From: Enorma massiliensis phI
Lineage (GTDB): Bacteria > Actinomycetota > Coriobacteriia > Coriobacteriales > Coriobacteriaceae
NCBI RefSeq assembly: GCF_000311845.1
Contig: NZ_HE978574.1
Coordinates: 1,021,248 to 1,085,247 of the forward strand
Direction: 5' to 3'
DNA: 64,000 bases
A program made the translations under genes and the position numbers. Position 1 is the first letter of the stretch. Every line of letters starts with the position of its first letter. The notes under the pieces are model-generated. The model saw only the letters and a list, made by a program, of their open reading frames with translations, was not told where the DNA came from and did no database searches. Below, piece after piece: positions 45,365 through 64,000 of this stretch.

Positions 45365-45470
45365 CTCGCTTCCGCTGCCGGGGCGTTTGCCGATGTTTTT
45401 CGGCGAGCCGCCCGTTGGTGTAGCCGCCCGTGTTCTGGGTACAGTATCATACCGGTAAACCGGCGTCTTC

Positions 45471-45510
45471 CGTACGGTGCCAGGCCCGCAAGCAGGCCGG
45501 GCACCGTACG
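45471..45510 (+). other. Stable hairpin in the clpP leader
   Basis: Perfect 11-bp arms CGTACGGTGCC/GGCACCGTACG with an inner GGCC/GGCC stem, followed by TCTTT, 30 bp before the clpP start. It could be a leaky terminator between tig and clpP or a leader control structure. Confidence 0.65.
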
Positions 45511-45539
45511 TCTTTGAAACGCATGAAGAAAGGAGCCCC

Positions 45540-46166
45540 ATGGCGCTACTTCGAACCGATTCCGCGCTCGTGCCCTATGTCATCGAGCAGACCCCGCGCG
45601 GCGAGCGCAGCTACGACATCTATTCCCGCCTCTTGAATGACCGTATCGTCTTTCTGGGCGAAGAGATCAACTCCGTGACCGCGAACCTCGTGATCGCCCA
45701 GCTTTTGCACTTGGAGAGCCAGGATGCCGAGAAGGACATCTCGCTCTACATCAACTCTCCCGGCGGCGAGGTGTACTCCGGTCTCGCCATTCTCGACACC
45801 ATGAACTTCATCAAGCCCGACGTCTCCACCATCTGCGTGGGCATGGCCGCTTCCATGGCGGCGGTGCTGCTCGCGTGCGGCGCCAAGGGCAAGCGCTTCT
45901 GCCTGCCGAATTCCATGGTGATGATTCACCAGCCGAGCGGCGGCGCTCAGGGGCAGCAGACCGAGATCGAGATTGCGGCTGAGGAGATCAAGAGCATCCG
46001 CAAAAACTTGAACCAGATTCTCGCCGATGCTACCGGCCAGCCGTTCGACAAGGTCAAGCAGGACACCGAGCGCGACCATTACCTGCGCGCCACCGACGCC
46101 CTCGAGTACGGCCTCGTTGACCGGATTATCGCGAACCGCTCCGAGGCTGCGAAGGGTGCAGAGTAA
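45540..46166 (+). CDS. clpP: ATP-dependent Clp protease proteolytic subunit
   Basis: Serine peptidase forming the ClpP tetradecamer, 208 residues. The catalytic triad is Ser105 ([20 protein letters not shown]), His130 ([13 protein letters not shown]) and Asp179 ([20 protein letters not shown]). ATG 45540 follows AAAGGAGC. The N-terminal [20 protein letters not shown] matches mature actinobacterial/firmicute forms. It overlaps clpX by one base. Confidence 0.97.
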
Positions 46167-47623
46167 TGGCCATGGATCCCCGCTCCGGCATGACCGGCAA
46201 CCAGGGCGAATCGCAAGGCGGCACCATCCGCTGCTCCTTCTGTGGGAAGGAGCAGGGACAGGTGCGCAAGCTCGTGAAGGGGCCCAACAACACCTTTATC
46301 TGCGATGAGTGCGTCTCGGCATGCGTCGAGATCCTCGAGGAATCGCTCGCCCACGATTTCATGCAGCAGAACCCCGGCTATCCCTACATGATGGGGGAGA
46401 ACGCCTTCGGCGCGGATGCCTTCGCGACGCCTGAGGTCGAGGCGGTTGATGAGGAGGCGGAGGATTCGTGCCGCCAGGTCATCACCCGCGTGCCCACCCC
46501 GCACGAGATCTACGATGAGCTCTCGCAGTACGTGATGGGCCAGGAGGACGCGAAGCGCGCCATGTCGGTGGCGGTCTATAACCACTACCGTCGCGTGCTC
46601 GAGGGCGGGGCGGCCGAGGGGGCGTTCGACTCGAGCGATGGGCGCACCCCCCAGGCGCCGCTCGGAAAGCATGCTGCTCCGGCGGACGATCTGGCCGATG
46701 TCGAGCTCGCCAAGTCGAATATCCTGCTTCTGGGCCCCACGGGTACGGGCAAGACGCTTTTGGCGCAGACGCTCGCGCGCATCCTTGAGGTGCCCTTCGC
46801 CATTGCGGACGCCACGGCGCTCACCGAGGCAGGCTACGTGGGCGAGGACGTGGAGAACATCCTCCTGAAGCTCATCACCGCAGCCGACGGCGACATCGAG
46901 CGCGCCCAGGTGGGCATCATCTACATCGACGAGATCGACAAGGTGGCGCGCAAGGCGGAGAACCTCTCCATCACGCGCGACGTGTCCGGCGAGGGCGTGC
47001 AGCAGGCGCTCCTCAAGATCCTCGAGGGTACCGTGGCGAGCGTGCCGCCCCAGGGCGGGCGCAAGCACCCGCAGCAGGAGCTCCTGGAGATCGATACCAC
47101 GAACATCCTCTTCATCTGCGGTGGCGCGTTCGTGGGACTCGACAAGATCATCGCGGACCGCGTGGGCAACAAGGGCATCGGTTTCAACTCCGAGCTCGCC
47201 GGCCCCACTTCCACCGACGAGAACGACCTCTTGAGCCAGGTTCTGCCGCAGGACCTCAACAGCTTCGGCATGATCCCGGAGTTCATCGGACGCACGCCGG
47301 TGATCACGCATACCGAGGCGCTTGACGAGGATGACCTGGTCTCGATTTTGACCGAGCCCAAGAACGCCATCGTGAAGCAGTACCGCCGCATGTTCCAGCT
47401 CGAGGACTGCGAGCTCGAGTTTGAGCCCGAGGCGCTGCGCGCCGTGGCCAAGCTTGCGCTCGAGCGGAAGACCGGTGCCCGCGGCTTGCGTTCCATCTGC
47501 GAGGACGTTCTGCAGCGCACGATGTTCGACCTTCCGAGCGAGCAGGGCGTAGCCAAGGTCGTGGTGACCGCCGCCGCCGTCCGTGGCGAGGAACAGCCCC
47601 GCCGCGTGTATCGCGCCGCATAG
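46166..47623 (+). CDS. clpX: ATP-dependent Clp protease ATPase subunit ClpX
   Basis: AAA+ unfoldase that feeds ClpP, 485 residues, longer than the typical 420. The zinc-binding domain has Cys23, Cys26, Cys46 and Cys49 (CSFCGKEQ...CDECV). Walker A GPTGTGKT is at 190-197 and Walker [10 protein letters not shown] near 250. Extra length comes from acidic/aromatic linker residues 68-105 and an insertion at 146-178 before the first AAA strand. TAATGG links it to clpP. Confidence 0.97.
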
Positions 47624-47651
47624 GTAGCTGGCCTGCCCGGGTAAAATATCT

Positions 47652-47693
47652 TCTGTCCTCATTTTGCGAAATTCCCTCTGTCCTCATTTTGCG
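47652..47693. repeat. Dispersed palindromic element, copy 3 (reverse, partly duplicated)
   Basis: TCTGTCCTCATTTTGCG occurs twice (47652-47668 and 47677-47693) around AAATTCCC. Read on the minus strand it gives AGGACAGAGGGAATTTCGC, the same core as copies 1 and 2. It is 28 bp after the clpX stop. Confidence 0.8.
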
Positions 47694-47768
47694 TAGGACG
47701 AAGTTTCTGGACCTCCCGTTATCCGCGCTATACTGGGAAACCGTATGGCTCGGGTAACGGGAGGTTTC

Positions 47769-48557
47769 ATGTACGCCCTGTTCTTCATCATCAGCTTCGG
47801 CGCCTCGATTATCGGGGCCATTTGCGGCATCGGCGGCGGCGTGATCATCAAGCCCGTGCTCGATGCCTCGGGTGCGCTCTTGCCCGGTACCATCAACTTC
47901 CTCTCGGGCTGCACGGTCTTGGCCATGACCTGCTATTCGGTGCTGCGCAACCGCCTCTCGGGCGCAACTTCCATCGAGGGCAAGACGGCGGTGCCCCTGG
48001 CGGTTGGAGCAGCGGTGGGCGGCCTCGCGGGCAAGCAGCTCTTCGATATCGTGGAGGGGCTGTTTCCCACGCCCGAGCTCGCAGGTGCCGTTCAGGCGGT
48101 CGCCCTCGGCATCATCACGATCGGGACGCTCGTCTATAACCTCAACAAGAGCCGTATCTCCACGCTCAACATCTCGGGTGCTGCGGCGTGTGTGGTCATC
48201 GGTTTCGCACTCGGCGTCATGTCGTCGTTCCTTGGCATCGGCGGAGGCCCCATCAACCTCGTCGTGCTCTATTTCTTCTTCAGCATGGGCACCAAGCAGG
48301 CGGCGCAGAATTCGCTCTTCATCATCCTGTGCTCGCAGGCGACGAGCACCGTCACGAGCATTCCTACCGTCGATTTCTCCGTCATCGATCCCTTGCTCAT
48401 CGCGGGCATGATCTGCTGCGGCATCCTGGGAGGTATCTGCGGCCGCGCCATCAACAAGCACATCGACGAGCGCCACGTGGACAAGCTCTTCAGCGGGCTC
48501 ATGGTCGTCATCGTGCTCATCTGCGTGTACAACGCAGCCAAGCACCTCGTTTTCTAG
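47769..48557 (+). CDS. TSUP family membrane transporter (TauE/SafE)
   Basis: 262 residues, about eight helices, with the family's paired glycine motifs GAICGIGGGVIIKPVLD near the N terminus and GVMSSFLGIGGGPINLVVLY at mid-protein. TSUP proteins export sulfite, sulfoacetate or related organosulfonates, but many have unknown substrates. I chose ATG 47769 after GGGAGG. It lies 10 bp upstream of the ClC gene, so the two are likely one operon. Confidence 0.88.
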   Translation: MYALFFIISFGASIIGAICGIGGGVIIKPVLDASGALLPGTINFLSGCTVLAMTCYSVLRNRLSGATSIEGKTAVPLAVGAAVGGLAGKQLFDIVEGLFPTPELAGAVQAVALGIITIGTLVYNLNKSRISTLNISGAAACVVIGFALGVMSSFLGIGGGPINLVVLYFFFSMGTKQAAQNSLFIILCSQATSTVTSIPTVDFSVIDPLLIAGMICCGILGGICGRAINKHIDERHVDKLFSGLMVVIVLICVYNAAKHLVF

Positions 48558-48567
48558 GGGTGCTTCA

Positions 48568-49998
48568 ATGAAGGAGAGCGACACCGCGGTCGGTATGGAA
48601 GAGCGATCCGTCTCTGAGCTCGACGGAGCCGGGGCACCTGCTCGGACATCTGCCGCTATCGGTGGCTACCTGCGAGCTCGCGAGCATGTGTTCGCCGAGG
48701 ATACGATTCGAGGGGCTCGCAACGCATGGCAGAGCCTGCGTCTCTTCTCGCTCGTTGCGCTTGTCGCAGCGCTCATGGGCGTTGCTGCTTGGGCGTTTCT
48801 CACGTGTCTTGACGCGGTTACGGGTTTTCGCGAAGCCCATCTCATCTGCTTCGCGCTGCTGCCGGCGGTTGGCGTCTTCACGGCGTGGCTCTATCGCAGG
48901 TACGGCAAGGATGCTGCGCGCGGCAATAACCTGGTGATTGATTGCACGGTCTCTGGCAGGCACATTCCGCCCGTTATGGCACCGTTCACCTTTGTGTGCT
49001 CGGTTGCCACGCATCTTGCCGGCGGTTCGGCGGGCCGAGAGGGCACGGCGGTCCAGATCGGCGGGACGATTGCCGATGCCGTTTCGCGTCTCTTCAAGCT
49101 TGGCGAATACGATCATCAAGATCTCCTCATGGCGGGCATTTCCGCTGCGTTCGGCGGGGTGTTCGGCACGCCGCTTGCGGGTGCTTTCTTCGGTATGGAG
49201 ATGTGCTTCGTGGGCAAGCTGCAATATCGCGCTGGCGTGTACTGTTTGCTCGCCTCGTTTGTCGGCGATGCCGTGACGACGGCGCTCGGATCCCCGCGCG
49301 AGAGCTACGCCATCGGCATGGTCCCGCAGCTCGGGCCTTCCTCGCTTGCGTTCGCGGTGCTGGCCGCGGTGGTCTTCGGTATCGCGGCGCGCATGTTCTC
49401 GGGGGCGATTCGCGTCGTCAAGCGATTCTATGCCGCCCATATCACGAACTACTTGGTAGCGGCGCTGGTTGGCGCGTTCGTGGTGCTCGGGACCTATGTG
49501 GTCTTTGGCTTATACGATTACGGCGGACTTTCCTCGTGGCTTGTGGAGGCTGGGTTCACGGGGGCCGCGACGCCCGTAGATGCGTTGCTCAAGCTCGCCA
49601 TGACGGCGCTTACGCTGGGGGCGGGCTTTCAGGGCGGCGAGGTCACGCCCATCTTCGGCATCGGGGCCTCGCTCGGTGGTTGGCTCGGCGCGGCGCTTGG
49701 CTACTCGCTTGGCGTTACGCCGGCGTTCGGTGCGGCGCTCGGTATGGTGGGCGTGTTCGGCTCGGCGCTCAACGTGCCCATGACGACGATCTTGCTCGGT
49801 GTGGACCTCTTCGGGGGTTTGGCGGCTCCGTACTTCGTTATCGTCTCGTTTGTGAGCTATCTGGTGGCGGGGCACCGCGGCGTGTACCCGGCGCAGCGCA
49901 TCGTAACGCCCAAGTGGCGCTCTCTCGAGGCGGACCAAGGGCATACCGTCAACGAGGTCATCGCGGACCATCACGAGAAGGCCACCAGGGCAAGCTGA
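48568..49998 (+). CDS. ClC-family anion channel/antiporter
   Basis: 476 residues with a 50-residue cytoplasmic N terminus and ClC core. The gating-glutamate motif is GGSAGREGTAVQIGG and the C-terminal half has AGFQGGEVTPIFGIGASLGG. The usual GSGIP chloride motif is not obvious, and GREGT replaces GREGP, hinting at the fluoride-exporting branch (inference, weak). Chloride/proton exchange for acid resistance is the alternative. No CBS domains are present. Confidence 0.86.
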   Translation: MKESDTAVGMEERSVSELDGAGAPARTSAAIGGYLRAREHVFAEDTIRGARNAWQSLRLFSLVALVAALMGVAAWAFLTCLDAVTGFREAHLICFALLPAVGVFTAWLYRRYGKDAARGNNLVIDCTVSGRHIPPVMAPFTFVCSVATHLAGGSAGREGTAVQIGGTIADAVSRLFKLGEYDHQDLLMAGISAAFGGVFGTPLAGAFFGMEMCFVGKLQYRAGVYCLLASFVGDAVTTALGSPRESYAIGMVPQLGPSSLAFAVLAAVVFGIAARMFSGAIRVVKRFYAAHITNYLVAALVGAFVVLGTYVVFGLYDYGGLSSWLVEAGFTGAATPVDALLKLAMTALTLGAGFQGGEVTPIFGIGASLGGWLGAALGYSLGVTPAFGAALGMVGVFGSALNVPMTTILLGVDLFGGLAAPYFVIVSFVSYLVAGHRGVYPAQRIVTPKWRSLEADQGHTVNEVIADHHEKATRAS

Positions 49999-50080
49999 GG
50001 GCGGGAAGAGGCGGTCTCCAATACCCGAATCCGAGGCTCCGACCGTGCTTTAGGGTAGTCGGCGTCTGCATGCGCGAGTG

Positions 50081-50215
50081 TTTTCAACTTTTGGGCACTC
50101 CATGTGCGTGATGCCCAGTAGCACGTTTGTCCGCGATGGTATCCTGCCTGGTAGACCGCTTGTGGCTTGCAGCTATAATCGAGGGGAACGGCGTTAAGTG
50201 CCCAAAACTTGAAAA
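50081..50215. mobile_element. 135-bp MITE-like element
   Basis: Terminal inverted repeats of 19 bp (18 identical) lie at 50081-50099 (TTTTCAACTTTTGGGCACT) and 50197-50215 (AGTGCCCAAAACTTGAAAA). They are flanked on both sides by the tetranucleotide AGTG (50077-50080, 50216-50219), which looks like a target-site duplication. The 97-bp interior has no coding frame. The gap 49999-50255 holds nothing else. An autonomous partner is not in the window. Confidence 0.65.
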
Positions 50216-50255
50216 AGTGGCTGACAAGACCCCACAATGCTTCGCGTTGGCGTCT

Positions 50256-51347
50256 CTAGCGCCGGATCGTGCGCGCGATGGCGGCCATCTGCGGGGCGGC
50301 CTCTTCTAGGAAGTCGCGATAGCCGCAATAATCCTCGCGGTAATAGGCGATATTCAAGCGCTTGCAGTTCCTATGGCAGATGCGCTCAAAGGGGCAGTCG
50401 GCGCATCGCGAGCACGCGCGCCGGGGCTCGGCGAGGAAGGCGCGCACGGCATCGCAGGTTGCGAGCTCTTCGAGGGTGTTATCCACGATGTTCCCGCAGC
50501 GGTAGCGGTCGAGCACGTAGAAATCGCACGGATACACATCGCCCGAGCTCTCCACTACGAATTGCGGCGCGCACCGCCCGAGCATGCCGCACTGCTGCGG
50601 GGCCACGCCGGCAAAGAGCGGGATCACGTTGTCGAAGAGCGTGACGGAGCGGTAGCGCCCCTGGCGGTACTCATCGAGCCAGAGTCGGAAGAACACCTTG
50701 TAGAACGAGGCGAACGCTTCGGGCGTGAGTGAGAACTCATCGGCATCGTCGTCAAGTCCCGGGAGGCAGGGGATGAGCTGGACGTAGTCAAGACCGTGGT
50801 CGCGGTAGAAGCGATAGAGCCTCTGCGGGTGCTTGGCAAGTTGCGCGGTGAGCACCGTGAGCACGTTGAACTCCACGTGTGCGTCGCGCAATACGTCGAT
50901 GGCACGCATGACGCGCGCAAAGGTGCCCGTACTCTCAGCATCGGGACGCAGCCAGTCGTGCAGCTCGCGGTAGCCGTCGAGCGAGATGCCCACCAAGAAG
51001 CGGTGCTCGTGGAAGAATGCCGCCCATTCCTCGTTGATAAGGTAGCCGTTCGTCTGGATGGCGTAGCTCACCTGCTGATGCGTGCGCCCGGCCTCCACGC
51101 GCGCAACGAACGCGCGGAAGAAGTCGAGTCCCGCGAGCGTGGGTTCGCCGCCTTGGAAGGCGAAGGCGATCCGCGCGCTGTCGTCGAGCCCGAGTGCACG
51201 GTCGATGAGCGCCTCCATCACATCGGTGCCCATGATGCCGTGCGAGCGCACCGCGCGGTGCTCGGCGACGTCCGCATAGAAGCAGTATCGGCACCGCATG
51301 TTGCACGAGGCCGAAGCAGGCTTGATGAGAAAGCTGATGTACTTCAT
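50256..51347 (-). CDS. Anaerobic sulfatase-maturating enzyme (radical SAM)
   Basis: Radical SAM/SPASM protein, 363 residues, that oxidises the sulfatase active-site Cys or Ser to formylglycine without oxygen. The AdoMet cluster motif is Cys15-Cys19-Cys22 in CNMRCRYCF; auxiliary-cluster cysteines include QQCGMLGRC, VYPCDFY and CSRCADCPFERICHRNC. The family motifs AFQGGEPTL and YAIQTNGYLIN are present. Two sulfatases with CxPxR sites lie downstream in the locus and are the obvious substrates. ATG follows GAGGAGC. Confidence 0.93.
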   Translation of the reverse strand: MKYISFLIKPASASCNMRCRYCFYADVAEHRAVRSHGIMGTDVMEALIDRALGLDDSARIAFAFQGGEPTLAGLDFFRAFVARVEAGRTHQQVSYAIQTNGYLINEEWAAFFHEHRFLVGISLDGYRELHDWLRPDAESTGTFARVMRAIDVLRDAHVEFNVLTVLTAQLAKHPQRLYRFYRDHGLDYVQLIPCLPGLDDDADEFSLTPEAFASFYKVFFRLWLDEYRQGRYRSVTLFDNVIPLFAGVAPQQCGMLGRCAPQFVVESSGDVYPCDFYVLDRYRCGNIVDNTLEELATCDAVRAFLAEPRRACSRCADCPFERICHRNCKRLNIAYYREDYCGYRDFLEEAAPQMAAIARTIRR

Positions 51348-51461
51348 GGGGCTCCTCGAACGGATGAGATGTTGGAGGCGGTCCGGTCGGACTCGCCGTT
51401 GGCAGGGAGACGACTCGGTCGCGCCCGCCGCCAGCAGAAAGATGTCCCGCCCGACCCGTCG

Positions 51462-52220
51462 CTAGCAGATCACCTGCGTGTACTGTTCGCAGGAGGCGCG
51501 TTGTTCGGCGGTGATGCCCGGATCGGTGATCACGGCGTCGATCTGGTCGAGGGTGTAGAACGTGAACAGGTCTTTTCGGAAGAACTTCGAGGAATCCGCC
51601 ACGATGTAGCGTTTGCGTCCCTTGTCGAGCGCCATGCGCTGGAGGTTCGAGATATCGACGTTGTGCCCCATCACGTCGGGCGCGCAGATGCCGTTCACCC
51701 CGAAGAACACCTTGTCTACGCTCATGGACGAGAGGGCCTCTTCGGTGAGATGTCCGTAGAGCACGCTCGTCTTGCGGCGATAGAGGCCGCCGAGCAGATA
51801 GAGCTCGATGTTGGGATTCTCTCTGAGCAGCTCGAAGGCGGAGATGCTGTTGGTGACCACGCTGAGCGACTTCTCGCCCAGATTCTGGGCGATGAGCTCG
51901 CAGGTGGTGCCCGCGCCGAGGAACACGGCATCGCCGTCTCTCAGAAGCCCCACCGCCAGCTTCGCGATATGCTGCTTCTCTGCATAGTGCTGCGATCTCT
52001 TTTTATCGTGCGGGAACTCGCGTACCATCTGCGGCACGGTGACAACGCTTTTAGCGCCGCCGCGCACGCGTTCGATGCGATGTTCCTGGGCGAGCTCCTC
52101 CATATCGCGCCTGATGGTCATCGGCGAGGTGCCGAGAAGCTCCGCGACCTCGTTCACCGTGACGAGCCCCGATGAGTTGCATAGGCGTACGATTTCTTCC
52201 TGTCGTTGAACCTTGAGCAT
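51462..52220 (-). CDS. DeoR-family transcriptional regulator
   Basis: 252 residues. N-terminal helix-turn-helix LVTVNEVAELLGTSPMTIRR followed by the DeoR linker ERVRGGAKSV and a C-terminal sugar-phosphate-sensing domain (DAVFLGAGTTCELIAQNLGE, RYIVADSSKFFRKDLFTFYT). It is divergent from the PTS operon, with shared operator-like repeats in between, and so is the likely repressor responding to a phosphorylated sugar made by that PTS. Confidence 0.93.
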   Translation of the reverse strand: MLKVQRQEEIVRLCNSSGLVTVNEVAELLGTSPMTIRRDMEELAQEHRIERVRGGAKSVVTVPQMVREFPHDKKRSQHYAEKQHIAKLAVGLLRDGDAVFLGAGTTCELIAQNLGEKSLSVVTNSISAFELLRENPNIELYLLGGLYRRKTSVLYGHLTEEALSSMSVDKVFFGVNGICAPDVMGHNVDISNLQRMALDKGRKRYIVADSSKFFRKDLFTFYTLDQIDAVITDPGITAEQRASCEQYTQVIC

Positions 52221-52555
52221 TTCTACCTCCCTTAGGCTTCTTTAAAATAACAGAAATGAACAAATAGAATCAAAAAATTACGTAGACGGTCAAATATTCG
52301 CGCCAAACGGTATTTTCTACACGATTGACGTTTGGGCTTTAAAGTCCTGCTAAGATATGTTCGTCCACGAAACCACGAGTTGTATCGGTATATATGTAAG
52401 GCTAGCGGTTTCGTAATGTGTTCATTTGCTACGTTATCTAATGTTCAATAAAGAACAAATTAGAACAACAGCTTCACGGAACACCGACAAGGGGAGGAGC
52501 CCGGCTGCGCATGGAAACGACGCGCGCGGGCGAAGACGATTCGTCAGGAGGAAGC
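52221..52555. promoter_or_regulatory. DeoR-PTS divergent control region with repeated motifs
   Basis: 335 bp, AT-rich, no gene. AAATGAACA occurs near 52254 and, in reverse complement, near 52419 (TGTTCATTT). GAACAAAT occurs at 52258-52265 and 52453-52460, and TGTTC-AATAAA-GAACA forms a palindrome at 52442-52457. A TTGACG box near 52325 could be a -35. These repeats are the best candidates for DeoR binding. Confidence 0.6.
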
Positions 52556-52987
52556 ATGTCGTTTGGAATCATCCTTGCGACGCACGCGCACATCGGCGAG
52601 GCATTGCTCGAGGGCACCGAGATGCTCGCGGGCAAGCAGACGCGCGTCTGCGCGCTCTCGCTCACCGAGAACAAGAGCGCCGAGGAGTTCGAGGCGGAGT
52701 TTTCCGAGGTCTACTCAGAGCTCGACGAGGCATATGACCATGTGGTCGCGCTCTGTGACATCTACGGCGGCACGCCGTTCAACGTCATCTCGCGCGCGTT
52801 GCTGCGCGGTGCCGAGATGGTCGCCTTTACCGGCGTGAACCTGCCCGTGCTCATCGATCTCGTGTTCTCGGCCGACCTTACGCCCGACGAGGTGCGCGAG
52901 CATGTGCTCGCCACCAATGCCGAGGCGCTCAAGGAGGTCAAAGTCCAGCTGGCGGAAGAAGAGGACGAGGACGACCTCGACCTCTAG
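52556..52987 (+). CDS. PTS mannose-family IIA component
   Basis: 143-residue EIIA of the mannose/fructose/sorbose family. His10 in FGIILATHAHIGEALLEG is the phosphorylation site; YGGTPFNVISRALLRG is conserved. It takes phosphate from HPr and passes it to IIB. ATG 52556 follows CAGGAGG. The highly acidic tail EEEDEDDLDL is notable. It is the first gene of the PTS operon. Confidence 0.93.
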   Translation: MSFGIILATHAHIGEALLEGTEMLAGKQTRVCALSLTENKSAEEFEAEFSEVYSELDEAYDHVVALCDIYGGTPFNVISRALLRGAEMVAFTGVNLPVLIDLVFSADLTPDEVREHVLATNAEALKEVKVQLAEEEDEDDLDL

Positions 52988-53002
52988 AAAGGAGTGAGCG
53001 AT

Positions 53003-53485
53003 ATGCCCCTCAAGCTTGTAGACATTGACGACCGTCTCATCCATGGCCAGGTTGCCACGACGTGGATTCCTGATTTCGGGATCGAGTCGGTGATCATCGT
53101 GAACGATGCCTGCGCGAACGACCCCGTGCAGCGCTCGGTCGCCGGACTCGCGGTGCCGAACATCAAGGTGTCGGTCTTCACCGTCGAGAAGTTCATCGAC
53201 GTGCTCAAGAAGACCACGCTCAAAAAGGTCACGCTCGTGCTCTTCGGCAACCCCATCGACGCCCTCGCCCTGAAGAAGAACGGGCTTGACTTCACCTATC
53301 TCAACGTCTCGGGTATGCGCTTCAACGACGAGCGCCAGCGCATCCATAAGAACATGTCCATCACCGCGGACGAGAAGCGCGCCTTCGAGGAGCTCGAGTC
53401 GCTCGGTGTGGAGTGCTGGATGCAGACGACGACCCGCGACACCAAGGAACGCGTGCCCGACCTGCTCAAGAACTTCAAGGGCTAG
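53003..53485 (+). CDS. PTS mannose-family IIB component
   Basis: 160 residues. Phosphorylated His14 lies in IDDRLIHGQVATTWIPDF, the hallmark of this family. ATG 53003 has AAAGGAG with normal spacing; a GTG 9 nt earlier overlaps that site. The sugar specificity cannot be read, but neighbours suggest an N-acetylhexosamine or sulfated derivative. Confidence 0.94.
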   Translation: MPLKLVDIDDRLIHGQVATTWIPDFGIESVIIVNDACANDPVQRSVAGLAVPNIKVSVFTVEKFIDVLKKTTLKKVTLVLFGNPIDALALKKNGLDFTYLNVSGMRFNDERQRIHKNMSITADEKRAFEELESLGVECWMQTTTRDTKERVPDLLKNFKG

Positions 53486-53657
53486 GCGCTCCGTTTCCGC
53501 CCGGTGACGTATCGCCGCCGGGCGCACCCCGCGCTCGTCCCGCCGCGCCTTCAGGTGTCCGGTTTCTTGGCCAGGCGAGCGCGATCGTTTCAGCGGCACT
53601 GCGGGCCGCATGCCAGCGACCCGTTGCAATTTCCATACTTGTAAAGGAGGAAACGGT

Positions 53658-54470
53658 ATGGTTCAAGCACTGCTCCTCGCCATCTGGGCGGGCCTGTGCG
53701 AGTGGGACCAGTTGGGCCCGCATCTCGGGTTCCGCAAGCCCTTGCTCGCGTCGGTCGGTGTCGGCATCATCTTGGGCGACATGACCACCGCGATCATCAT
53801 CGGCGCAACCATGGAGCTCATGTGGCTTGGCGTCAACAACATCGGCGCGTACGTTCCGCCCGATGTCATCTCCGGCACCATCGTGGGCGCGTCGCTGGGC
53901 ATCATGTCCGGCGGCAGCGTGACCGAGGCCACGGCGCTCGCCGTCGCCATCGGCGTCCCCACCGCCACGTTGGTCCAGCAGCTCAACATCCTGGTCATGA
54001 CCACGAACGCCACCTTCCTGCACGGTGCCGACAAGGCTGCCGAGTCCGGTGAGTTCAAGGCGGTCAACAAGTTCTTCTGGGGTGGCGCGATCTGCTTCTT
54101 CCTGACGCGCGCCGTGCCGGTGTTCATCGCCACCGGCATCGGTTCCTACGTCATCGAGAACATCATGGCCTTCCTGCAGAACGATGTGCCCTGGGTGCTT
54201 TCCGGTATGAGCGCTGCCGGCGGCATGATGCCCGCCGTGGGCCTCGCGATGCTGCTCACCATGATGATGAAGAAGAACATGTGGATCTTCCTGCTCATCG
54301 GTTTCGTGCTCAACGCGTATGTGGGCATCCCCACCCTTGGCTGCGCGATCATCGCTGCCGCCATCGCCGGCTTCTACGACTTCGTCGTCGAGGGCCAGAA
54401 GAACACGCAGGCCGCTCCGGCCATCGCCTCCGCTGAAGGCGCTGATGATGGAGAGGAGTATGATCTGTAA
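53658..54470 (+). CDS. PTS mannose-family IIC component
   Basis: Membrane transport subunit of 270 residues (EII-Sor). It has seven or so hydrophobic segments and the family motif GATMELMWLGVNNIGAYVPP near 52-71. ATG 53658 follows AAAGGAGG. The preceding 172-bp gap contains no gene. The last base of its stop is the first base of the IID start. Confidence 0.93.
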   Translation: MVQALLLAIWAGLCEWDQLGPHLGFRKPLLASVGVGIILGDMTTAIIIGATMELMWLGVNNIGAYVPPDVISGTIVGASLGIMSGGSVTEATALAVAIGVPTATLVQQLNILVMTTNATFLHGADKAAESGEFKAVNKFFWGGAICFFLTRAVPVFIATGIGSYVIENIMAFLQNDVPWVLSGMSAAGGMMPAVGLAMLLTMMMKKNMWIFLLIGFVLNAYVGIPTLGCAIIAAAIAGFYDFVVEGQKNTQAAPAIASAEGADDGEEYDL

Positions 54471-55297
54471 TGGCTCACGTCAGCAATCACGCCCTGAACA
54501 AGGTTCTTCTGCGCACCCAGGGCTGCCAGTTCGCGCATAACTACGAGCGCATGCAGTCGCTCTCGCTCACCTACTGCTTCTCGCCGGTCCTTGAGGAGCT
54601 CTACAAGGACCGCCCCAAGGAGGAGCGCGTCACGGCGATGAAGCGCTATCTCGAGTACTTCAACACCCATCCGCTCGCGATCCCGTTCATCCTGGGCATC
54701 TGCGCCGCGCTCGAGGAGACCACCGACGAGGACCACAAGGATGCCGTGACCGGCATCAAGACCTCGCTCATGGGTCCGTTCGCCGGCCTCGGTGACTCGA
54801 TGCTGAACCTCACGTGGTACCCCATCGCCGGTTCCATCGGCGCGTCGCTCTGCGTCAGCAACGGCTCGCTCATCGGCCCGCTCGTCATGTTCCTGCTCAT
54901 CAACGTGCTCTACTGGCCGCTGAAGTACTTCGGCATCCACATGGGCTACACCAAGGGCATGGAGCTCATCGAGCAGGGCGGCGTCGCGCTCATCGAGCGC
55001 CTCGGCAACCTCGCCAACGTCCTCGGCGTCATCGTCGTGGGCTGCTTGATCCCGCAGACGGTCAAGCTCACCACGGGGCTGCAGTTCGCCTTCTCCGAGG
55101 GCGATCCGCTCGTCATCCAGACCCAGCTCGACGCGGTCATGCCGTACATGCTGCCGGTCATCCTCACCTTGATCTGCTATAAGCTCATCAAGAAGGGTCA
55201 GGGCAAGAACACCGCCCAGGTGATCATCGGCATCATCGTGTTCGCGCTTGTCTTCGCTGCCATCGGCTATTACACCGGCGTCAGCATCTTCGCGTAA
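54470..55297 (+). CDS. PTS mannose-family IID component
   Basis: 275-residue EIID subunit. The N-terminal cytoplasmic part (GCQFAHNYERMQSLSLTYCF, FNTHPLAIPFILGICAALEE) and GIKTSLMGPFAGLGDSMLNL are diagnostic, followed by membrane helices. It overlaps IIC by one base. It completes a full transporter whose product is a 6-phosphorylated sugar. Confidence 0.94.
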   Translation: MAHVSNHALNKVLLRTQGCQFAHNYERMQSLSLTYCFSPVLEELYKDRPKEERVTAMKRYLEYFNTHPLAIPFILGICAALEETTDEDHKDAVTGIKTSLMGPFAGLGDSMLNLTWYPIAGSIGASLCVSNGSLIGPLVMFLLINVLYWPLKYFGIHMGYTKGMELIEQGGVALIERLGNLANVLGVIVVGCLIPQTVKLTTGLQFAFSEGDPLVIQTQLDAVMPYMLPVILTLICYKLIKKGQGKNTAQVIIGIIVFALVFAAIGYYTGVSIFA

Positions 55298-55625
55298 GGA
55301 CGGTCGGCCTCTCGGCGCCGCGCCTACCGGCTTCATGATGCCGGGCGCGTGGCACCGCATGTACGACGTCATCGCAACGTAATCGCGTGACCGGCGTTCG
55401 CACCGTTGTCACGCAAAGGGCATGGGGCGCCCGAAGCATCACCGAGGCGCCCCATGCGAGCGGTCCGGACCCGCTGCTTGCCGCACGGCGGGTCCGGACA
55501 CCCGTGTCCCTCAACATGCCCGGACTTCATCGCATATTCCGGGCATCTTGTGGAACATGAGCGTTATACCCACAAACGCGAGCGGGCGATCACCGTGCCC
55601 GCCATCATAGAGAAAGGGCGCTTGC
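55298..55625. other. PTS-sulfatase spacer with three hairpins
   Basis: 328 bp without a gene. A GCGTGA...TCACGC element (55385-55414) is shared with the second sulfatase leader. Two perfect stems follow: ATGGGGCGCC/GGCGCCCCAT (55422-55455) and GTCCGGACCCGC/GCGGGTCCGGAC (55463-55499). None has a T run, so they may tune mRNA processing or partial termination rather than end the operon. Confidence 0.65.
55385..55414 (+). repeat. Sulfatase-leader element, copy 1
   Basis: GCGTGA and TCACGC ends frame a loop that contains GCACCGTTG. The same design (GCACCGCTG) is found at 58270-58302 before the second sulfatase. Confidence 0.6.
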
Positions 55626-57125
55626 ATGAGAACGATCCTGGTGCTGATGGACACCCTTCGCAGGGATGCGCTGGGGTGTTACAACCCCGAGGGAGCCGCC
55701 CATACGCCGCATCTCGACGCGTTCGCTGAGGACTCGCTGGTCTTCGACAACCATTGGATCGGCTCCGCGCCGTGCATGCCCGCGCGCCGCGACATCATGT
55801 GCGGGCGCTACAACTTCCTCGAGCGGCCCTGGGGCCCCATCGAGCCCTTCGACGCCACGCTCGTGGACGGTCTGCGGGCGGGCGGTACCTATACCTGCAT
55901 CAAGACGGACCATTGCCACTATGCTCGCACGGGCGGCGAGGGCTATCTCCAGCTGTTCAACAGCTGGGAGCTCTTCCGCGGCCAGGAGGGCGACCCGTGG
56001 GTGAGTCGCATCGACGAGCCCGACAACATGCCCGAGACCTTCTACGGCCGTGTGCGCGAGCAGTATCAGAAGAATCGGGCGAAGTGGCCGCGCGAGGAGG
56101 ACATGCCGAGCCCGCGCACCTTCCGGGCGGCCTGCGACTTCATCGAGGAAAATGCCGAGAACGATGACTTCTTCCTCATGGTCGAGGCGTTCGACCCGCA
56201 TGAGCCCTTCGATGTGCCCGACCGCTACATGGACATGTACGGCGGTGCCGAGGGACTCGATCGCGATTACTTCGAGATCCCGCCCTATCGTCGCGTGAGC
56301 GAGACGGATATTCCCGAGAGCGCCATCGAGTACGTGCAGCGTCGCTATAAGGCGCTGGTGACGTGCACGGACCATTGGTTCGGCACGCTCATCGACGCGC
56401 TCAAGGCGCGTGGCATCTACGACGACACGATGATTCTCGTGACCACCGATCACGGGTACTTCCTCGGCGATCGCGACTATCTGGGCAAGAATTACATGCA
56501 TCTGTATAACGAGCTCGCCCATCTGCCGTTTATCGTGCACTTCCCGGGGGGTGCTCGGGCAGGCGAGCGCGCCGGGCAGCTGACCCAGGCGATCGATATC
56601 ATGCCTACGCTGCTCGATGCATACGGTTGCGAGGTGCCATCGACCGTGCGCGGCACATCGCTCATGCCGTTGATGACCGATGCGACCGCCCCGACGCGCG
56701 ATTATGCGCTCTATGGCGTGCACGCCATGACGGTGAACGTGACGGATGGCCGCTACACCTACTTCCGTGCTCCCGTGCCGGGAAACCGCCCGTGCTACGA
56801 GTACGCGGCCATTCCCCATACCATCCGCAAGAAGATGGGCACCGATTGCGTGGATGATATCGAGATGGGGCGCTTCCTCTCGTGGACGGACTATCCCGTC
56901 TACCGGTTCCCCTGCACGAAGCCGGCGAACATCGATCAGCGAGAGGACTGCCTGGAAGAGGTGCGCGACTCGCTGCTCTTCGATCTGGACGGGGACTATG
57001 CCCAGGTCCATAACCTGGCGGGGGAGGATGCCCCTGCCGAGGATCGCATGGTCGCGCTGCTGCGACGCGGCCTCGTCGAGCACGACGCGCCCGCCGAGCA
57101 ATTCGACCGCCTGGGCCTCTCCTAG
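55626..57125 (+). CDS. Cys-type sulfatase (S1 family), cytoplasmic
   Basis: Sulfate ester hydrolase of the alkaline-phosphatase fold, 499 residues. The formylglycine site is Cys50 in APCMPARRDIMCGRY, matching CxPxR; metal ligands are in LVLMDTLRRDALGCYNPEG and VTTDHGYFLGDRDYLGK. The protein starts directly with the first beta strand (MRTILVLMDT) and has no signal peptide, so it acts inside the cell on imported sugars. ATG follows AGAAAGGG. Maturation would need the radical SAM enzyme at 50.3 kb. Confidence 0.9.
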   Translation: MRTILVLMDTLRRDALGCYNPEGAAHTPHLDAFAEDSLVFDNHWIGSAPCMPARRDIMCGRYNFLERPWGPIEPFDATLVDGLRAGGTYTCIKTDHCHYARTGGEGYLQLFNSWELFRGQEGDPWVSRIDEPDNMPETFYGRVREQYQKNRAKWPREEDMPSPRTFRAACDFIEENAENDDFFLMVEAFDPHEPFDVPDRYMDMYGGAEGLDRDYFEIPPYRRVSETDIPESAIEYVQRRYKALVTCTDHWFGTLIDALKARGIYDDTMILVTTDHGYFLGDRDYLGKNYMHLYNELAHLPFIVHFPGGARAGERAGQLTQAIDIMPTLLDAYGCEVPSTVRGTSLMPLMTDATAPTRDYALYGVHAMTVNVTDGRYTYFRAPVPGNRPCYEYAAIPHTIRKKMGTDCVDDIEMGRFLSWTDYPVYRFPCTKPANIDQREDCLEEVRDSLLFDLDGDYAQVHNLAGEDAPAEDRMVALLRRGLVEHDAPAEQFDRLGLS

Positions 57126-57172
57126 GTTCGCGCGGCCTTACCGGACAGGCTCCTACACGACAGGGAGGCTTC

Positions 57173-57781
57173 GTGGACATCCGCATCATCGGCGCCGTGA
57201 TACTCATCGCCGCGACGGCGCTTTTGATCCTCACTGAAGTGGCGAAGCGCGCATATACCCATGAGCTCGCTTCGCTTCTCGAGCAGGGGGAGGTGCGCGC
57301 GTACCTCGCCTTGCTCGAGAAACCGCTCGTGAAGCTCGTCTTCCCTGCCTGGAATCGCTCGTTTATGCAGCTCAACGGGTATCTTGCGCTCGATGCGTAC
57401 GGCGAGGCGGATTCCGTGATCGAGCGAATGCTCTCCATGAGGCAGAATGACCGCCAGCGCCGCGAGCTCGTGGGGAAGGCCTTCAACTACTATCTCGAGC
57501 GCGGCAATGCCGAAGGGGCGACGAGGCTTCTCGCCGAGATTGAGGCCTGGGAAGACGCCGACGCCGTCGCGGAGGCGCGCATGATGCACGACATCTACAT
57601 CAAGAAGGGCTGGGGATATATCGAGGACATGGAGCGCCGCGTCGAGGGGCTCCACGGGGTCGATCGAGGCTTCCTCGAGCTCTTGCTGGCCCTGCAATAC
57701 GAGAACAAGGGCGATGGCGCGGCAAGTGAGCGCTATCTCAAGCGCTCCGAGAAGCACATGCGCACGCCCGTGAAGGGATGA
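57173..57781 (+). CDS. Membrane-anchored helical (TPR-like) protein of unknown function
   Basis: 202 residues. An N-terminal membrane helix (IIGAVILIAATALLILTEVA) precedes about 170 residues of predicted alpha-helix with TPR-like pairs (YLALDAYGEADSVIERML, AFNYYLERGNAEGATRLLAE, LALQYENKGDGAASERYLKR). GTG 57173 has GGGAGG upstream. It sits between two sulfatases in the same orientation. The family is unrecognised. Confidence 0.72.
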   Translation: MDIRIIGAVILIAATALLILTEVAKRAYTHELASLLEQGEVRAYLALLEKPLVKLVFPAWNRSFMQLNGYLALDAYGEADSVIERMLSMRQNDRQRRELVGKAFNYYLERGNAEGATRLLAEIEAWEDADAVAEARMMHDIYIKKGWGYIEDMERRVEGLHGVDRGFLELLLALQYENKGDGAASERYLKRSEKHMRTPVKG

Positions 57782-57785
57782 GTTC

Positions 57786-58253
57786 ATGCCCGCGTTTTTC
57801 TCAAGCTTCGGCGTTCTCGAGTGGACTCTTGTCATCGTGGCCGCCCTGCTGGTCTGCTATAGCGTGTACCTCGCCATCGACCAGCGGGGCTCGTTGAGGT
57901 TCGCGGTACCCCGCGCGCCGGTTAACGCGGTCGTCGCGGCTGCGGTTGCCGTCCTCGGTATCGGGTACTTCGTCGTGCGGGGCGCGCAGCCCGACGACTT
58001 CTCCGCGTGCTGCGTCCTCGTCGCGGTGGGTGCTTCGCTTGCCCTCGTGCGCTCCGGCATGGGGCCGCACGGGATCTATCAGGGCGGCATGCGCGTGGGC
58101 TGGGATCGCATCGAGCGGGTCGAATCCGTTGCGGTCGCGGGCGGCGTGTCCGTGCGCTACACGATGCGCGGTGCCGAGCGCGAGCTCGTTCTGCTCGGGG
58201 CCGATGCTGGCGCGGTCGAGGCTTTTCTCGCCGATATGCGCAAGATTCACTGA
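57786..58253 (+). CDS. Small membrane protein with C-terminal PH-like domain
   Basis: 155 residues. Two or three hydrophobic segments (WTLVIVAALLVCYSVYLAI, VNAVVAAAVAVLGIGYFVV, CCVLVAVGASLALVRSGMG) precede GIYQGGMRVGWDRIERVES, which resembles the DUF5673/bacterial PH fold. ATG 57786 follows GATGAG and lies 4 bp after the preceding gene, so the pair is cotranscribed. Function unknown. Confidence 0.7.
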   Translation: MPAFFSSFGVLEWTLVIVAALLVCYSVYLAIDQRGSLRFAVPRAPVNAVVAAAVAVLGIGYFVVRGAQPDDFSACCVLVAVGASLALVRSGMGPHGIYQGGMRVGWDRIERVESVAVAGGVSVRYTMRGAERELVLLGADAGAVEAFLADMRKIH

Positions 58254-58269
58254 ACGGTTCCGGCTCCCT

Positions 58270-58302
58270 GCGTGAGAGCTTCCCCTGGCACCGCTGTCAC
58301 GC
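58270..58302 (+). repeat. Sulfatase-leader element, copy 2
   Basis: GCGTGA/TCACGC ends (8 bp when flanking C/T-G/A pairs are counted, CTGCGTGA/TCACGCAG) frame a loop ending in GCACCGCTG. It lies 33 bp before the second sulfatase. Confidence 0.6.
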
Positions 58303-58334
58303 AGGGCGGTTGGCGCATCTAGGGAAGGAGAGCC

Positions 58335-59825
58335 ATGGCTCGTCCGATTGCTCAACCTAATATCGTTCTCATCGTCTGCGACCAGCTGCGCGGCGATTGC
58401 CTGGGAGCCGCCGGGCATCCGGACGTGAAGACGCCCTACCTCGATACGCTTGCTGCGGAGGGAACGCTCTTCGAGAACGCCTACTCCGCCTGTCCGAGCT
58501 GTATTCCGGCGCGCGCAGGGCTCCTCACCGGCCAGGCCCCTTCCTCCCATGGCCGTGTGGGCTATCAGGATGGCGTAGATTGGGAGTACGACCATTATCT
58601 TGCCGAGGAACTCGGTTGCGCCGGCTATCAGACGGCATGCGTGGGCAAGATGCACGTGCATCCGCCCCGTCTCGCCTGCGGCTTCCAGACGCTCAAGCTG
58701 CATGACGGATACATCGGCCACTATCGCCATGCCGATACGCCGTATTGGCAGCATCAAGCGGTTTCCGATGACTACATGCGCGACATGCGCGACCGCTTGG
58801 GCGCTTCATTCGATGTGAACGGCTCGGGCGTCGAGAACAATTCCTGGATCACGCATCCCTGGATCTACGAGGAGCGCTACCATCCCACGAACTGGGTGGT
58901 CGATGAGTCCATCCGCTTCCTCGAGACGCGCGACCGCACGCGGCCGTTCTTCCTCACCGCAAGCTTCGTGCGCCCGCATCCGCCATTCGATGCCCCCCAG
59001 AGCTACTTTGACCTCTATGACGGGTGCGACCTGCGCCCGCCCGCTTCGGGAGACTGGGACGACGTCGAGGCGACCGAGCGCGACGGCATGGTCCTCGACA
59101 GCGTTCACGGTTGTCGCGATGCGGAGCTTCGTCGTCAGGCGATGGCAGGGTACTATGCATGCATCACGCACATCGATCATCAGGTGGGACGCCTCATCAC
59201 TGCCCTCGAGAACGACGGGACCTATGGCAACACGATCGTGGTGTTCACCTCGGATCACGGGGAGATGCTCTTCGACCACTCCCTGTTCCGCAAGGTGCTG
59301 CCCTATGAGGGGTCCGCGCACATACCGTTTATCGTCCGCGCTGGCAAGCAGGCGGCAGCGGCGATGGGCGCAGGGGAGGGCTATGCCGGGCGGCGCTCCG
59401 AGCAGGTGGTCGAACTCATGGACATCATGCCGACGCTTTTGGAGTTCGCGGGTGCGGGCGTGCCCGACACGGTCGATGGCTCGTCCCTTGCGAGCGAGGT
59501 GCTGGGGCGGGGGAGCCTGCAGCGCACCTACATCCACGGAGAGCATGCGCGGGATCGCGAGCAATCGAACCACTATATCGTGACGTCGCGCGATAAGTAC
59601 ATCTGGTTCAGCCAGACGGGACGCGAGCAGTACTTCGACCTCGCCGCCGATCCGCGCGAGTCGCATGATGCCATCGACGACCCTGCCTGCGCGCAGCGCG
59701 TGGCGGAGCTGCGCTCCGTGCTCATCGCCGAGCTTGCGGGGCGCGAGGAGGGCTTCGTGAAGGACGGGGAACTCGTCGCAGGCCGCCGGCTCACGAACCT
59801 GTTCCAATGCCGGTGGGAGCGGTAG
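58335..59825 (+). CDS. Cys-type sulfatase (S1 family), cytoplasmic
   Basis: 496 residues. Formylglycine site Cys56 in SCIPARAGLLTG; metal-binding VLIVCDQLRGDCLG and FTSDHGEMLFDHSLFRK. VGKMHVHPPRLACGF is the conserved KxH region. No signal peptide is present. It is clearly diverged from the first sulfatase, so the two probably remove sulfate from different positions or sugars. ATG follows GGAAGGAG. Last gene of the sulfated-glycan locus. Confidence 0.92.
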   Translation: MARPIAQPNIVLIVCDQLRGDCLGAAGHPDVKTPYLDTLAAEGTLFENAYSACPSCIPARAGLLTGQAPSSHGRVGYQDGVDWEYDHYLAEELGCAGYQTACVGKMHVHPPRLACGFQTLKLHDGYIGHYRHADTPYWQHQAVSDDYMRDMRDRLGASFDVNGSGVENNSWITHPWIYEERYHPTNWVVDESIRFLETRDRTRPFFLTASFVRPHPPFDAPQSYFDLYDGCDLRPPASGDWDDVEATERDGMVLDSVHGCRDAELRRQAMAGYYACITHIDHQVGRLITALENDGTYGNTIVVFTSDHGEMLFDHSLFRKVLPYEGSAHIPFIVRAGKQAAAAMGAGEGYAGRRSEQVVELMDIMPTLLEFAGAGVPDTVDGSSLASEVLGRGSLQRTYIHGEHARDREQSNHYIVTSRDKYIWFSQTGREQYFDLAADPRESHDAIDDPACAQRVAELRSVLIAELAGREEGFVKDGELVAGRRLTNLFQCRWER

Positions 59826-60196
59826 CACGGCCGCCTGTCCGGTCATGGGTGCGTTCTCGCCGTACCAATCACGACGAGGACGCGCTCATTGCTGCGTCCG
59901 CCGAGACGGGGAACGAACTTCTCTCTGCGTCGGCTGCGACGTGGCGCGCCGTCATGGCAAGGCCGGCGGATGGGTCCTGCCGCGCCCCGTGTGGCGTTCT
60001 CGGGCGAAATATGGACGCCCAGATGCCTAATCCTGTACACATCTTGCCCGAGAACGCCCGCCGTGTTCAAATATCGCCCGTAAACAAAGAGCGTCCTCGT
60101 GGCGGCCTGCGTCTTGCGGTCGCACCTCCTGTGCTATCCTCTTGCAATACGTGTATCGCGTGAAATCCGAGTAGAGATGCAAGCATAGAGGTGCCC
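59826..60196. promoter_or_regulatory. valS leader with competing inverted repeats
   Basis: 371 bp without a gene. Perfect 13-bp arms GGCGTTCTCGGGC (59993-60005) and GCCCGAGAACGCC (60046-60058) can pair; the first arm can instead form a local GGGCG/CGCCC stem (60002-60020). ATATCGCCC at 60071-60079 is another partial complement. No T-box signature was found. This may be a structured leader or a terminator for the sulfatase operon. Confidence 0.5.
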
Positions 60197-62908
<2,712 letters not shown>

Positions 62909-62937
62909 GTGACAGCCCCTCATTTGATGTTCTAGGA

Positions 62938-63003
62938 AAGCGTCGCATAGCTCGATGGCGGAGGCTTGAATGCCGCTCCACCGTCGAGTTGTGCGACGCT
63001 TTT
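62938..63003 (+). terminator. Long hairpin terminator after valS
   Basis: 25-bp arms at 62938-62962 and 62977-63001 pair completely if G-U pairs are allowed (outer stem AAGCGTCGCA/TGCGACGCTT), followed by a short TTTT. Confidence 0.75.
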
Positions 63004-63121
63004 GCTTGCAGCGTTTCGGAGGGCGGCCTGGCACGCCAATCCGCGTCGACGCGTGCTAGTATGGTGGAGCGGCTGAGCACCGAACACGAACCACTGATGC
63101 CGTTGAGCGATGGAGGCTTCC

Positions 63122-64000
63122 ATGGCTAATCTCGAAGCGATGCGCACCTTTCAGAGGCATTGGACGAGCTACTGCGCTGAAGAGCGCACCCTCGCCCGAT
63201 TGTGCACGCAGCTCCCCCTCGATATCTCGGGCCTGGGCGCAAGGGAACGTCGGCTCCCGCCGTTCGCGTTTTCCACCGCCGCCGTCTACGATCGTCGTGC
63301 GCTCGCTGGGGCGCTCGGGCCGGACGGCGCGCATCTCGGCTATCGCGTCGATGAGGGCATCCAATGGAACTGGTGGCTCGCCTATGACGCTTGGCGCGCC
63401 GTCATCGACGAGCGGTCGTTGCTCGACGAGCGCGCCGCATGCATCGCCGAGCTCGCAGCCGTCGCGGCCGATACGCAGCGGGCGCTGGATGGGGACGAGG
63501 AACTTGCGCGCGACCGCTCGACCTTAAGGGACTATGCTGCCGCCGACGCCGAGGAGCGCTCAGAGCTCGCCCGCATGAACGAGCAGCGCAAGAAGTTCGT
63601 GGAACCCTACGAGCAGGATGAGGCGCGCCGGGCGCCATGGATCGCGCACCCCTGGAGGCGCTTGAAGCTCTGGTTTTTCAAGAGCTTTCGGATGAGGGAC
63701 GAGCTGGACAAGATCGATCAGAAGATCGCCGACATCCAAGCTAAGCTCGACGTGCGGGAACGCAAGATCGGTGAGCTTGGGGATGCGGTAGCCGCGCGCA
63801 CGGCATTGCTTGAAGAGCCCTTCGCGCCGCAGCGCAAGCGGTCGCTCGAAGCGATTCTGTCGACCGAGCGCGAACTGCTTTCGCTCCTCGATCACGATCT
63901 CGCTGCGCGGGACGAGACCTATGAGCAGGGGTCCGTGCTCGCAGAATCGTTCGAGGACGGCCTCGCTCATGCGAACGAGCGCGAATGGGCGCTGCTGGGG
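63122..64000 (+). CDS. Coiled-coil protein of unknown function, 3' end outside the window
   Basis: ATG 63122, preceded by GGAGG, opens a frame without a stop for 293 codons to the window edge. It begins MANLEAMRTFQRHWTSYCAE; residues about 95-270 are charged and helical with heptads (DKIDQKIADIQAKLDVRERK). A single Trp/Phe-rich patch (HPWRRLKLWFFKSFRMRDEL) might touch a membrane. I do not recognise the family. Codon use matches the neighbours, supporting a real gene. Confidence 0.72.
   Translation, partial: MANLEAMRTFQRHWTSYCAEERTLARLCTQLPLDISGLGARERRLPPFAFSTAAVYDRRALAGALGPDGAHLGYRVDEGIQWNWWLAYDAWRAVIDERSLLDERAACIAELAAVAADTQRALDGDEELARDRSTLRDYAAADAEERSELARMNEQRKKFVEPYEQDEARRAPWIAHPWRRLKLWFFKSFRMRDELDKIDQKIADIQAKLDVRERKIGELGDAVAARTALLEEPFAPQRKRSLEAILSTERELLSLLDHDLAARDETYEQGSVLAESFEDGLAHANEREWALLG

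Follow-up and report, generated by a model that had tools for sequence, protein, structure and literature searches.

A conserved mannose-family PTS-sulfatase locus of Enorma massiliensis phI and its probable role in the import-first use of sulfated sugars

Gene content of the locus

We analyzed a locus of Enorma massiliensis phI that unites a complete mannose-family phosphotransferase system (PTS) with two Cys-type sulfatases and an anaerobic sulfatase-maturating enzyme (anSME, the maturase). The locus lies in a stretch of 64,000 nucleotides (contig NZ_HE978574.1, positions 1,021,248 to 1,085,247), here called the window, to which all positions refer unless another locus or contig is named. 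An interpretation made earlier from the DNA letters alone (the sequence-only reading) had placed an anSME, a DeoR regulator, PTS subunits IIA, IIB, IIC, and IID, and two CxPxR sulfatases at 50256-59825. This gene set was confirmed, with all Pfam matches above the curated cut-offs.

On the forward strand, the genes for IIA (mannose family, 52556-52987; EIIA-man, PF03610), IIB (mannose/sorbose family, 52994-53485; PTSIIB_sorb, PF03830), IIC (53658-54470; EII-Sor, PF03609, 228.7 bits), and IID (54470-55297; EIID-AGA, PF03613, 265.2 bits) precede the first sulfatase, SulfA (55626-57125; PF00884). Two conserved small genes, orf202 (57173-57781) and orf155 (57786-58253), separate SulfA from the second sulfatase, SulfB (58335-59825; PF00884). 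The maturase (50256-51347; radical SAM and SPASM domains) and the DeoR-family regulator (51462-52220; HTH_DeoR and DeoRC domains), the latter divergent to the PTS operon, are encoded on the reverse strand. The maturase is flanked at 47745-49998 by a TauE/SafE-family anion exporter (47745-48557; PF01925, 97.8 bits against a cut-off of 32.6) and a ClC-type channel (48568-49998; PF00654, 195 bits), both on the forward strand.

Identity of the sulfatases, maturase, and PTS

The formylglycine motifs are CMPAR at SulfA residues 50-54 and CIPAR at SulfB residues 56-60. With Pfam Sulfatase scores of 118.7 and 176.3 bits, respectively (cut-off 25), both proteins were classified as S1 formylglycine sulfatases. 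As the sequence-only reading had claimed, neither carries a signal peptide, which is impossible because the frame is open for only five codons (SulfA) and four codons (SulfB) 5' of the start; both enzymes are thus predicted to be cytoplasmic. The structure model of SulfA (pLDDT 92.1) has the S1 fold. Its best matches in a fold search were S1 sulfatases and phosphonate monoester hydrolases; since these reached a TMq of about 0.66 and an identity of about 21%, SulfA has no close solved relative, and the fold search pointed to no substrate class. SulfB was assigned to the PRK13759 arylsulfatases by NCBIfam (608.7 bits against a cut-off of 481), and its nearest solved structures are EfAS (9koq, the closer one) and then BT1918 (7oz8, 348 bits). 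The SulfB model had poor confidence around the active-site loops, too poor for judging the substrate. Two more Sulfatase-superfamily matches lie outside the window, at G000:C1:128946-129824 and 1558873-1559190.

The maturase matched the solved anSME 4k36 at 1.5e-86 and has the CxxxCxxC cysteines (Cys 15/19/22) in addition to its radical SAM and SPASM domains. Its NCBIfam scores were 340.1 for TIGR03942 (cut-off 349.45) and 352.4 for PRK13758 (cut-off 441), whereas the maturase relative in the Clostridium cadaveris locus (L063) scored 381.4 on TIGR03942, above the cut-off. All four mannose-family PTS subunits exceeded their Pfam cut-offs, the phospho-acceptor histidines were found by inspection in IIA (ATHAH) and IIB (RLIHGQ), and the E. 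massiliensis phI genome has a gene for PTS enzyme I at another site. The label of an N-acetylgalactosamine (GalNAc)/galactosamine (Aga) PTS was tried and rejected, as AgaF (73 against 130), AgaW (170 against 300), and AgaE (144 against 500) were all under the cut-off.

Conservation of the PTS-SulfA gene order

The sequence-only reading had proposed a search for this gene order in other Coriobacteriia; the present search used two samples. The first comprised 65 genomes of the family, of which 11 have a SulfA-family gene and nine of these a close orthologue (at least 74% identity). IIA-IIB-IIC-IID lies immediately 5' of SulfA in 9/9 close-orthologue genomes, the window counted in. For the second sample, the GTDB 220 genomes were scanned, and we took the best 80 of 547 relatives among the stretches matched, which represent 79 loci. 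In all 11 loci whose SulfA reached at least 53% identity, the gene is preceded by the same set of four PTS genes; these loci come from Thermophilibacter mediterraneus, Thermophilibacter provencensis, Olsenella sp. An285, Collinsella intestinalis, a Collinsella metagenome-assembled genome (MAG), Kribbibacterium absianum, Massilimicrobiota, Dielma fastidiosa, an Erysipelotrichaceae MAG, Clostridium cadaveris, and a Tissierellia MAG. Loci L057 and L058 duplicate contigs already present in the first sample, those of G031 and G019, and were counted once. This left 18 distinct genomes, from Coriobacteriia and Bacillota, whose SulfA is at least 53% identical; the order IIABCD-SulfA was found in all 18, and its recurrence is far beyond chance. 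Among the 68 more distant SulfA loci, some of them on short contigs, mannose-PTS matches occurred in one (L065, Dielma).

In a tree of 41 SulfA proteins, the 10 sampled PTS-linked rows formed one clade (support 99/96), which splits into a Coriobacteriia and a Bacillota branch, with L065 as sister. SulfB is present in 12/18 PTS-SulfA loci and absent or only a fragment in the other six, of which two are on contigs that stop after SulfA; the locus includes the maturase in 12/18. Because SulfB and the maturase are each found in only 12 loci, the core of the system is SulfA with its PTS.

Further arrangements were observed in the relatives. In G027, a SulfB match of just 35 residues lies behind SulfA and the maturase (L042:7844-7948), and a SulfB relative is found on another contig (L043). 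Three genomes have, near clpX, a second, different mannose-family PTS (IIC, IID) paired with a SulfB relative and with a GntR regulator (L045:4709-7976, L043:9491-12689, and L053:8860-12141); in one of them, G060 (L045), this second PTS-SulfB system and the first system stand on opposite sides of the TauE-ClC pair. The order DeoR-IIB-IIC-IID-IIA, accompanied by a SulfA relative of about 50% identity, makes up a third arrangement, which occurs in Thermophilibacter (L054:16322-21209) and Dielma (L065:6518-11464).

Co-occurrence with the maturase and TauE

Among the 65 family genomes, a full-length maturase (at least 60% identity) was found in 11/11 genomes with a SulfA-family gene and 0/54 others (Fisher 1.1e-12), and a TauE/SafE protein related to the copy in the C. 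intestinalis operon in 11/11 and 5/54 (Fisher 4.9e-9); both tests assume independent genomes, an assumption that relatedness violates. Within genus g3, TauE occurs in 5/5 SulfA-family genomes against 1/38. TauE lies inside the sulfatase operon, behind the sulfatase genes and orf202, in L054-L058 and L062. The link is looser in the window because TauE lies upstream with ClC, and the TauE-ClC pair also occurs at a sulfatase-free site of G058.

Decayed maturase remnants were found in two of the 54 genomes lacking a SulfA-family gene, G047 (G047:C2:463542-463721) and G049 (L136:8654-9100). The G049 remnant stands beside ClC and TauE, which suggests loss of the sulfatase cassette.

Horizontal exchange of the cassette

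We compared the window with G048, a genome of another genus. From 47669 to about 61000 the identity is mostly 95-98%, including 9,679 bases at 97.8%; it drops to about 92% at 60-61 kb, and in the flanks it is 86% for clpX and 76-84% for the far part of valS. The block takes in TauE, ClC, the maturase, the regulator, the PTS, and both sulfatases, whereas G058, of the same genus as the window, has the same neighbor genes and no sulfatase genes. By these identities, the whole cassette, including TauE and ClC, was recently exchanged horizontally; a small doubt comes from the fragmented G048 assembly, where the block is spread over two contigs overlapping within ClC. The ClC channel belongs to the exchanged block, and its role in the pathway is unproven.

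Proposed pathway and substrate

The gene neighborhoods connect the PTS-SulfA core to galactose catabolism. In C. cadaveris (L063), the maturase is divergent from a same-strand series IIA-IIB-IIC-IID-SulfA-LacA-LacB-aldolase-kinase, in which LacA (167.8 bits, cut-off 164), LacB (275, cut-off 234), and the tagatose-bisphosphate aldolase (498, cut-off 443.55) all exceed their thresholds. The order in C. intestinalis (L058) is AgaS-NagA-two DeoR-PTS-SulfA-maturase-SulfB-orf202-TauE-LacA-LacB-epimerase-LacC-DeoR-aldolase. Of the 18 PTS-SulfA genomes, 10 have LacA within the retrieved locus itself; anywhere in the genome, LacA was found in 9/9 genomes with a SulfA orthologue against 27/56 others (p 0.003).

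Contig C2 of E. massiliensis phI encodes LacA, LacB, LacG, and NagA above the cut-offs, together with AgaS-like, LacC-like, and aldolase genes. The LacC-like protein (355 against 409.55) and the tagatose aldolase (342 against 383) are below their own cut-offs and above the broader hexose-kinase and ketose-bisphosphate-aldolase cut-offs; with this reservation, LacA, LacB, LacC, and the aldolase of the tagatose-6-phosphate pathway are all represented in the own genome. The same locus has GH35, the LacG glycosidase, and a second mannose-family PTS. The earlier statement that no glycosidase is present thus holds locally, but not genome-wide. The galacto-N-biose operons (gnb, bgaC) of lactobacilli and streptococci resemble the C2 locus in joining a mannose-family PTS to GH35, AgaS, and NagA; to our knowledge, they have no sulfatase, maturase, or TauE. 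A GH35-dependent disaccharide was rejected as the obligatory substrate, since GH35 occurs in only 6/9 genomes with a SulfA orthologue.

Neither GH88 nor GH20 matched in the own genome, with positive controls for both (for GH88 in 3/14 genomes), and the PL8 search was uninformative because no control matched. The PTS phosphorylates C6 of its sugars, and as of 2017 no PTS sugar modified at C6 was known (PMC5430744). On these grounds 6-sulfates are poor candidates, and the 6-sulfo-N-acetylglucosamine (6-sulfo-GlcNAc) named by the sequence-only reading is disfavored. Taking together the LacAB linkage, the Lac/Aga genes of C2, the missing GH88 and GH20 matches, and the C6 chemistry, we consider the most likely substrate to be a galactose or GalNAc sugar that carries sulfate and has its C6 free, rather than 6-sulfo-GlcNAc or a glycosaminoglycan (GAG) disaccharide.

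We therefore read the locus, with somewhat better than even confidence, as an import-first catabolic cassette that combines PTS uptake and phosphorylation, cytoplasmic desulfation, a galacto route, and sulfate export by TauE. The mannose-family PTS would import and phosphorylate a small sulfated sugar whose C6 hydroxyl is free. SulfA, together with SulfB where present, would be matured by anSME within the cytoplasm and strip sulfate from the sugar phosphate, as the predicted location of the enzymes and their linkage imply. The sugar is most probably a sulfated galactose or GalNAc, or a short galactose-N-acetylhexosamine unit; galactose-3-sulfate of mucin and GalNAc-4-sulfate are guesses at the position. 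The product would enter the tagatose-6-phosphate route, galactose-6-phosphate via LacAB and GalNAc-6-phosphate via NagA and the AgaS-like protein, followed by the LacC-like kinase and the aldolase. The released sulfate would leave through TauE, and DeoR probably represses the operon. Import and phosphorylation first with cytoplasmic desulfation second, and dependence on sugars freed by others, had both been suggested by the sequence-only reading; gene order, co-occurrence, and the missing signal peptides support the former well at the level of genome evidence, and the latter is supported at the same level. The tagatose-6-phosphate link, the TauE exporter, and the pneumococcal precedent described below were absent from it.

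Several observations weigh against this assignment. LacA is not nearby in 8/18 loci (in two of them the contig ends within 300 bases of SulfA), it is widespread in the family regardless (36/65 genomes), and the Lac/Aga genes of E. massiliensis phI are on a contig other than that of the sulfatase locus. The L063 kinase exceeds the cut-offs as a hexose kinase and as a 1-phosphofructokinase and falls below that for LacC. The PTS subunits are below every substrate-specific NCBIfam cut-off. TauE occurs without sulfatases in G058, G055, and G056. A candidate operator of the window was dropped as a link to the C2 Lac/Aga locus, where the palindrome was not found. Of the solved relatives of SulfB, the nearer one, EfAS, is an unspecific arylsulfatase (PMC12421950), and BT1918 removes the 3-sulfate from GlcNAc (PMC10154612), which does not fit galactose.

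The best-surviving alternative, which we regard as unlikely, is also import-first, with a sulfated GlcNAc (e.g., 3-O-sulfated GlcNAc) feeding NagA. BT1918 belongs to family S1_46 and is a 3S-GlcNAc sulfatase dependent on the N-acetyl group (PMC10154612, PMC10154620), and NagA is present in the genome. Since BT1918 also accepts substrates with a 6-sulfate (PMC10154612), a related enzyme might plausibly tolerate a 6-phosphate. However, the constant partner of the PTS is SulfA and not SulfB, the LacAB linkage points to galactose, and the closer relative EfAS is unspecific.

The broad hydrolytic activity of EfAS, which covers esters of sulfate, phosphate, and phosphonate as well as estrone sulfate (PMC12421950), would suit a second alternative, in which the sulfatases scavenge sulfate or cut aryl, steroid, or phosphonate esters next to a PTS that imports an unrelated sugar. 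This is improbable, as the PTS-SulfA adjacency spans two phyla in a single clade and further mannose-family PTS genes adjoin sulfatases in L043, L045, L053, L054, and L065. More improbable still is a sulfated GAG disaccharide, another substrate entertained by the sequence-only reading: streptococci take up unsaturated hyaluronan disaccharides via a PTS, and a chondroitin operon of Proteus vulgaris includes genes for a putative sulfatase and a putative PTS (PMC9067506), but GH88 had no match in the own genome, with the control positive in 3/14 genomes. Finally, import of an unsulfated sugar with sulfatases working extracellularly via non-classical export is very improbable, since a signal peptide is impossible, the TauE linkage fits sulfate release inside the cell, and the present analysis found no point in its support.

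Comparison with known systems

Descriptions of host-glycan desulfation concern mainly Bacteroides, where the step takes place at the surface or in the periplasm. The Bacteroides mucin sulfatases of families S1_4, S1_11, S1_15, S1_16, and S1_20 share the S1 formylglycine chemistry and act on sulfated host glycans; however, they are exported to the surface or periplasm and act ahead of cytoplasmic uptake (PMC10154612, PMC10154620). The pneumococcal island SPH1922-1929 likewise unites a PTS and a sulfatase with an enzyme that modifies the sulfatase and with a TauE-family gene (PMC3302838). Mutants of the island showed reduced fitness in mice; no sulfatase activity was detected, no substrate was assigned, and the authors left undecided whether the PTS and the sulfatase act jointly (PMC3283741). 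The island has a lactose-family PTS and a ROK/MarR regulator, whereas the present locus has a mannose-family PTS and DeoR. Because the PTS family differs, the present locus would work alike but is no member of the pneumococcal type.

For a GAG cluster of Streptobacillus moniliformis, sulfated GAG disaccharides are also imported and desulfation is predicted in the cytoplasm, but through an ATP-binding cassette transporter without phosphorylation on entry, and with GH88 and lyases present (PMC5430744). The P. vulgaris operon, similar in its putative sulfatase and PTS genes, differs by two chondroitin lyases and an unsaturated glycuronyl hydrolase (PMC9067506). Our literature search, restricted to open-licence papers, returned no paper on the Coriobacteriia/Bacillota locus and only the pneumococcal island and the GAG operons as partial matches. 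The PTS-sulfatase-maturase-TauE grouping is therefore already published for pneumococcus, and the mannose-family variant with a link to the galacto route is new here.

A wider claim is more tentative, and we lean slightly against it: that a phosphorylate-first, desulfate-second pathway for sulfated galactose is common to gut Actinomycetota and Bacillota, with SulfA as a new sulfatase type acting on sugars that bear both 6-phosphate and sulfate, TauE as a dedicated exporter, and a cassette of about 13 kb moving between genera. Import before desulfation would reserve the sugar for the cell that takes it up, and would account for the way in which Gram-positive gut bacteria that have neither GAG hydrolases nor exported sulfatases could live on sulfated leftovers of host mucus freed by other microbes. 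The C. cadaveris operon, with PTS, SulfA, and galactose-6-phosphate isomerase, also offers a testable substrate hypothesis for the pneumococcal island.

Accessory genes and putative regulatory elements

Neither orf202 nor orf155 had a Pfam or NCBIfam match. The product of orf202, with an N-terminus that is hydrophobic by inspection, is a conserved accessory protein whose gene adjoins the sulfatases in 13/13 Coriobacteriia loci; a paralogue (E 3.7e-13) lies on contig C2 beside the second mannose-family PTS (L140:13419-14081). The small orf155 protein, also hydrophobic by inspection, is present in five further loci of the same kind.

A search of 45000-64000 against Rfam gave no match, and the promoter and terminator scans scored close to the shuffled-sequence level. 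Between DeoR and IIA, the perfect palindrome TGTTC-N6-GAACA (52442-52457, forward strand) is a candidate operator that is weak alone, with 24/100 shuffles reaching an equal match count (up to one mismatch). A 19-base inverted repeat, 95% complementary with a spacing of 97 bases, lies at 50081-50215 between the ends of ClC and the maturase. The gap between IID and SulfA holds a hairpin with 12-base arms (55463-55499), a possible processing or attenuation site, and G060 has one too.

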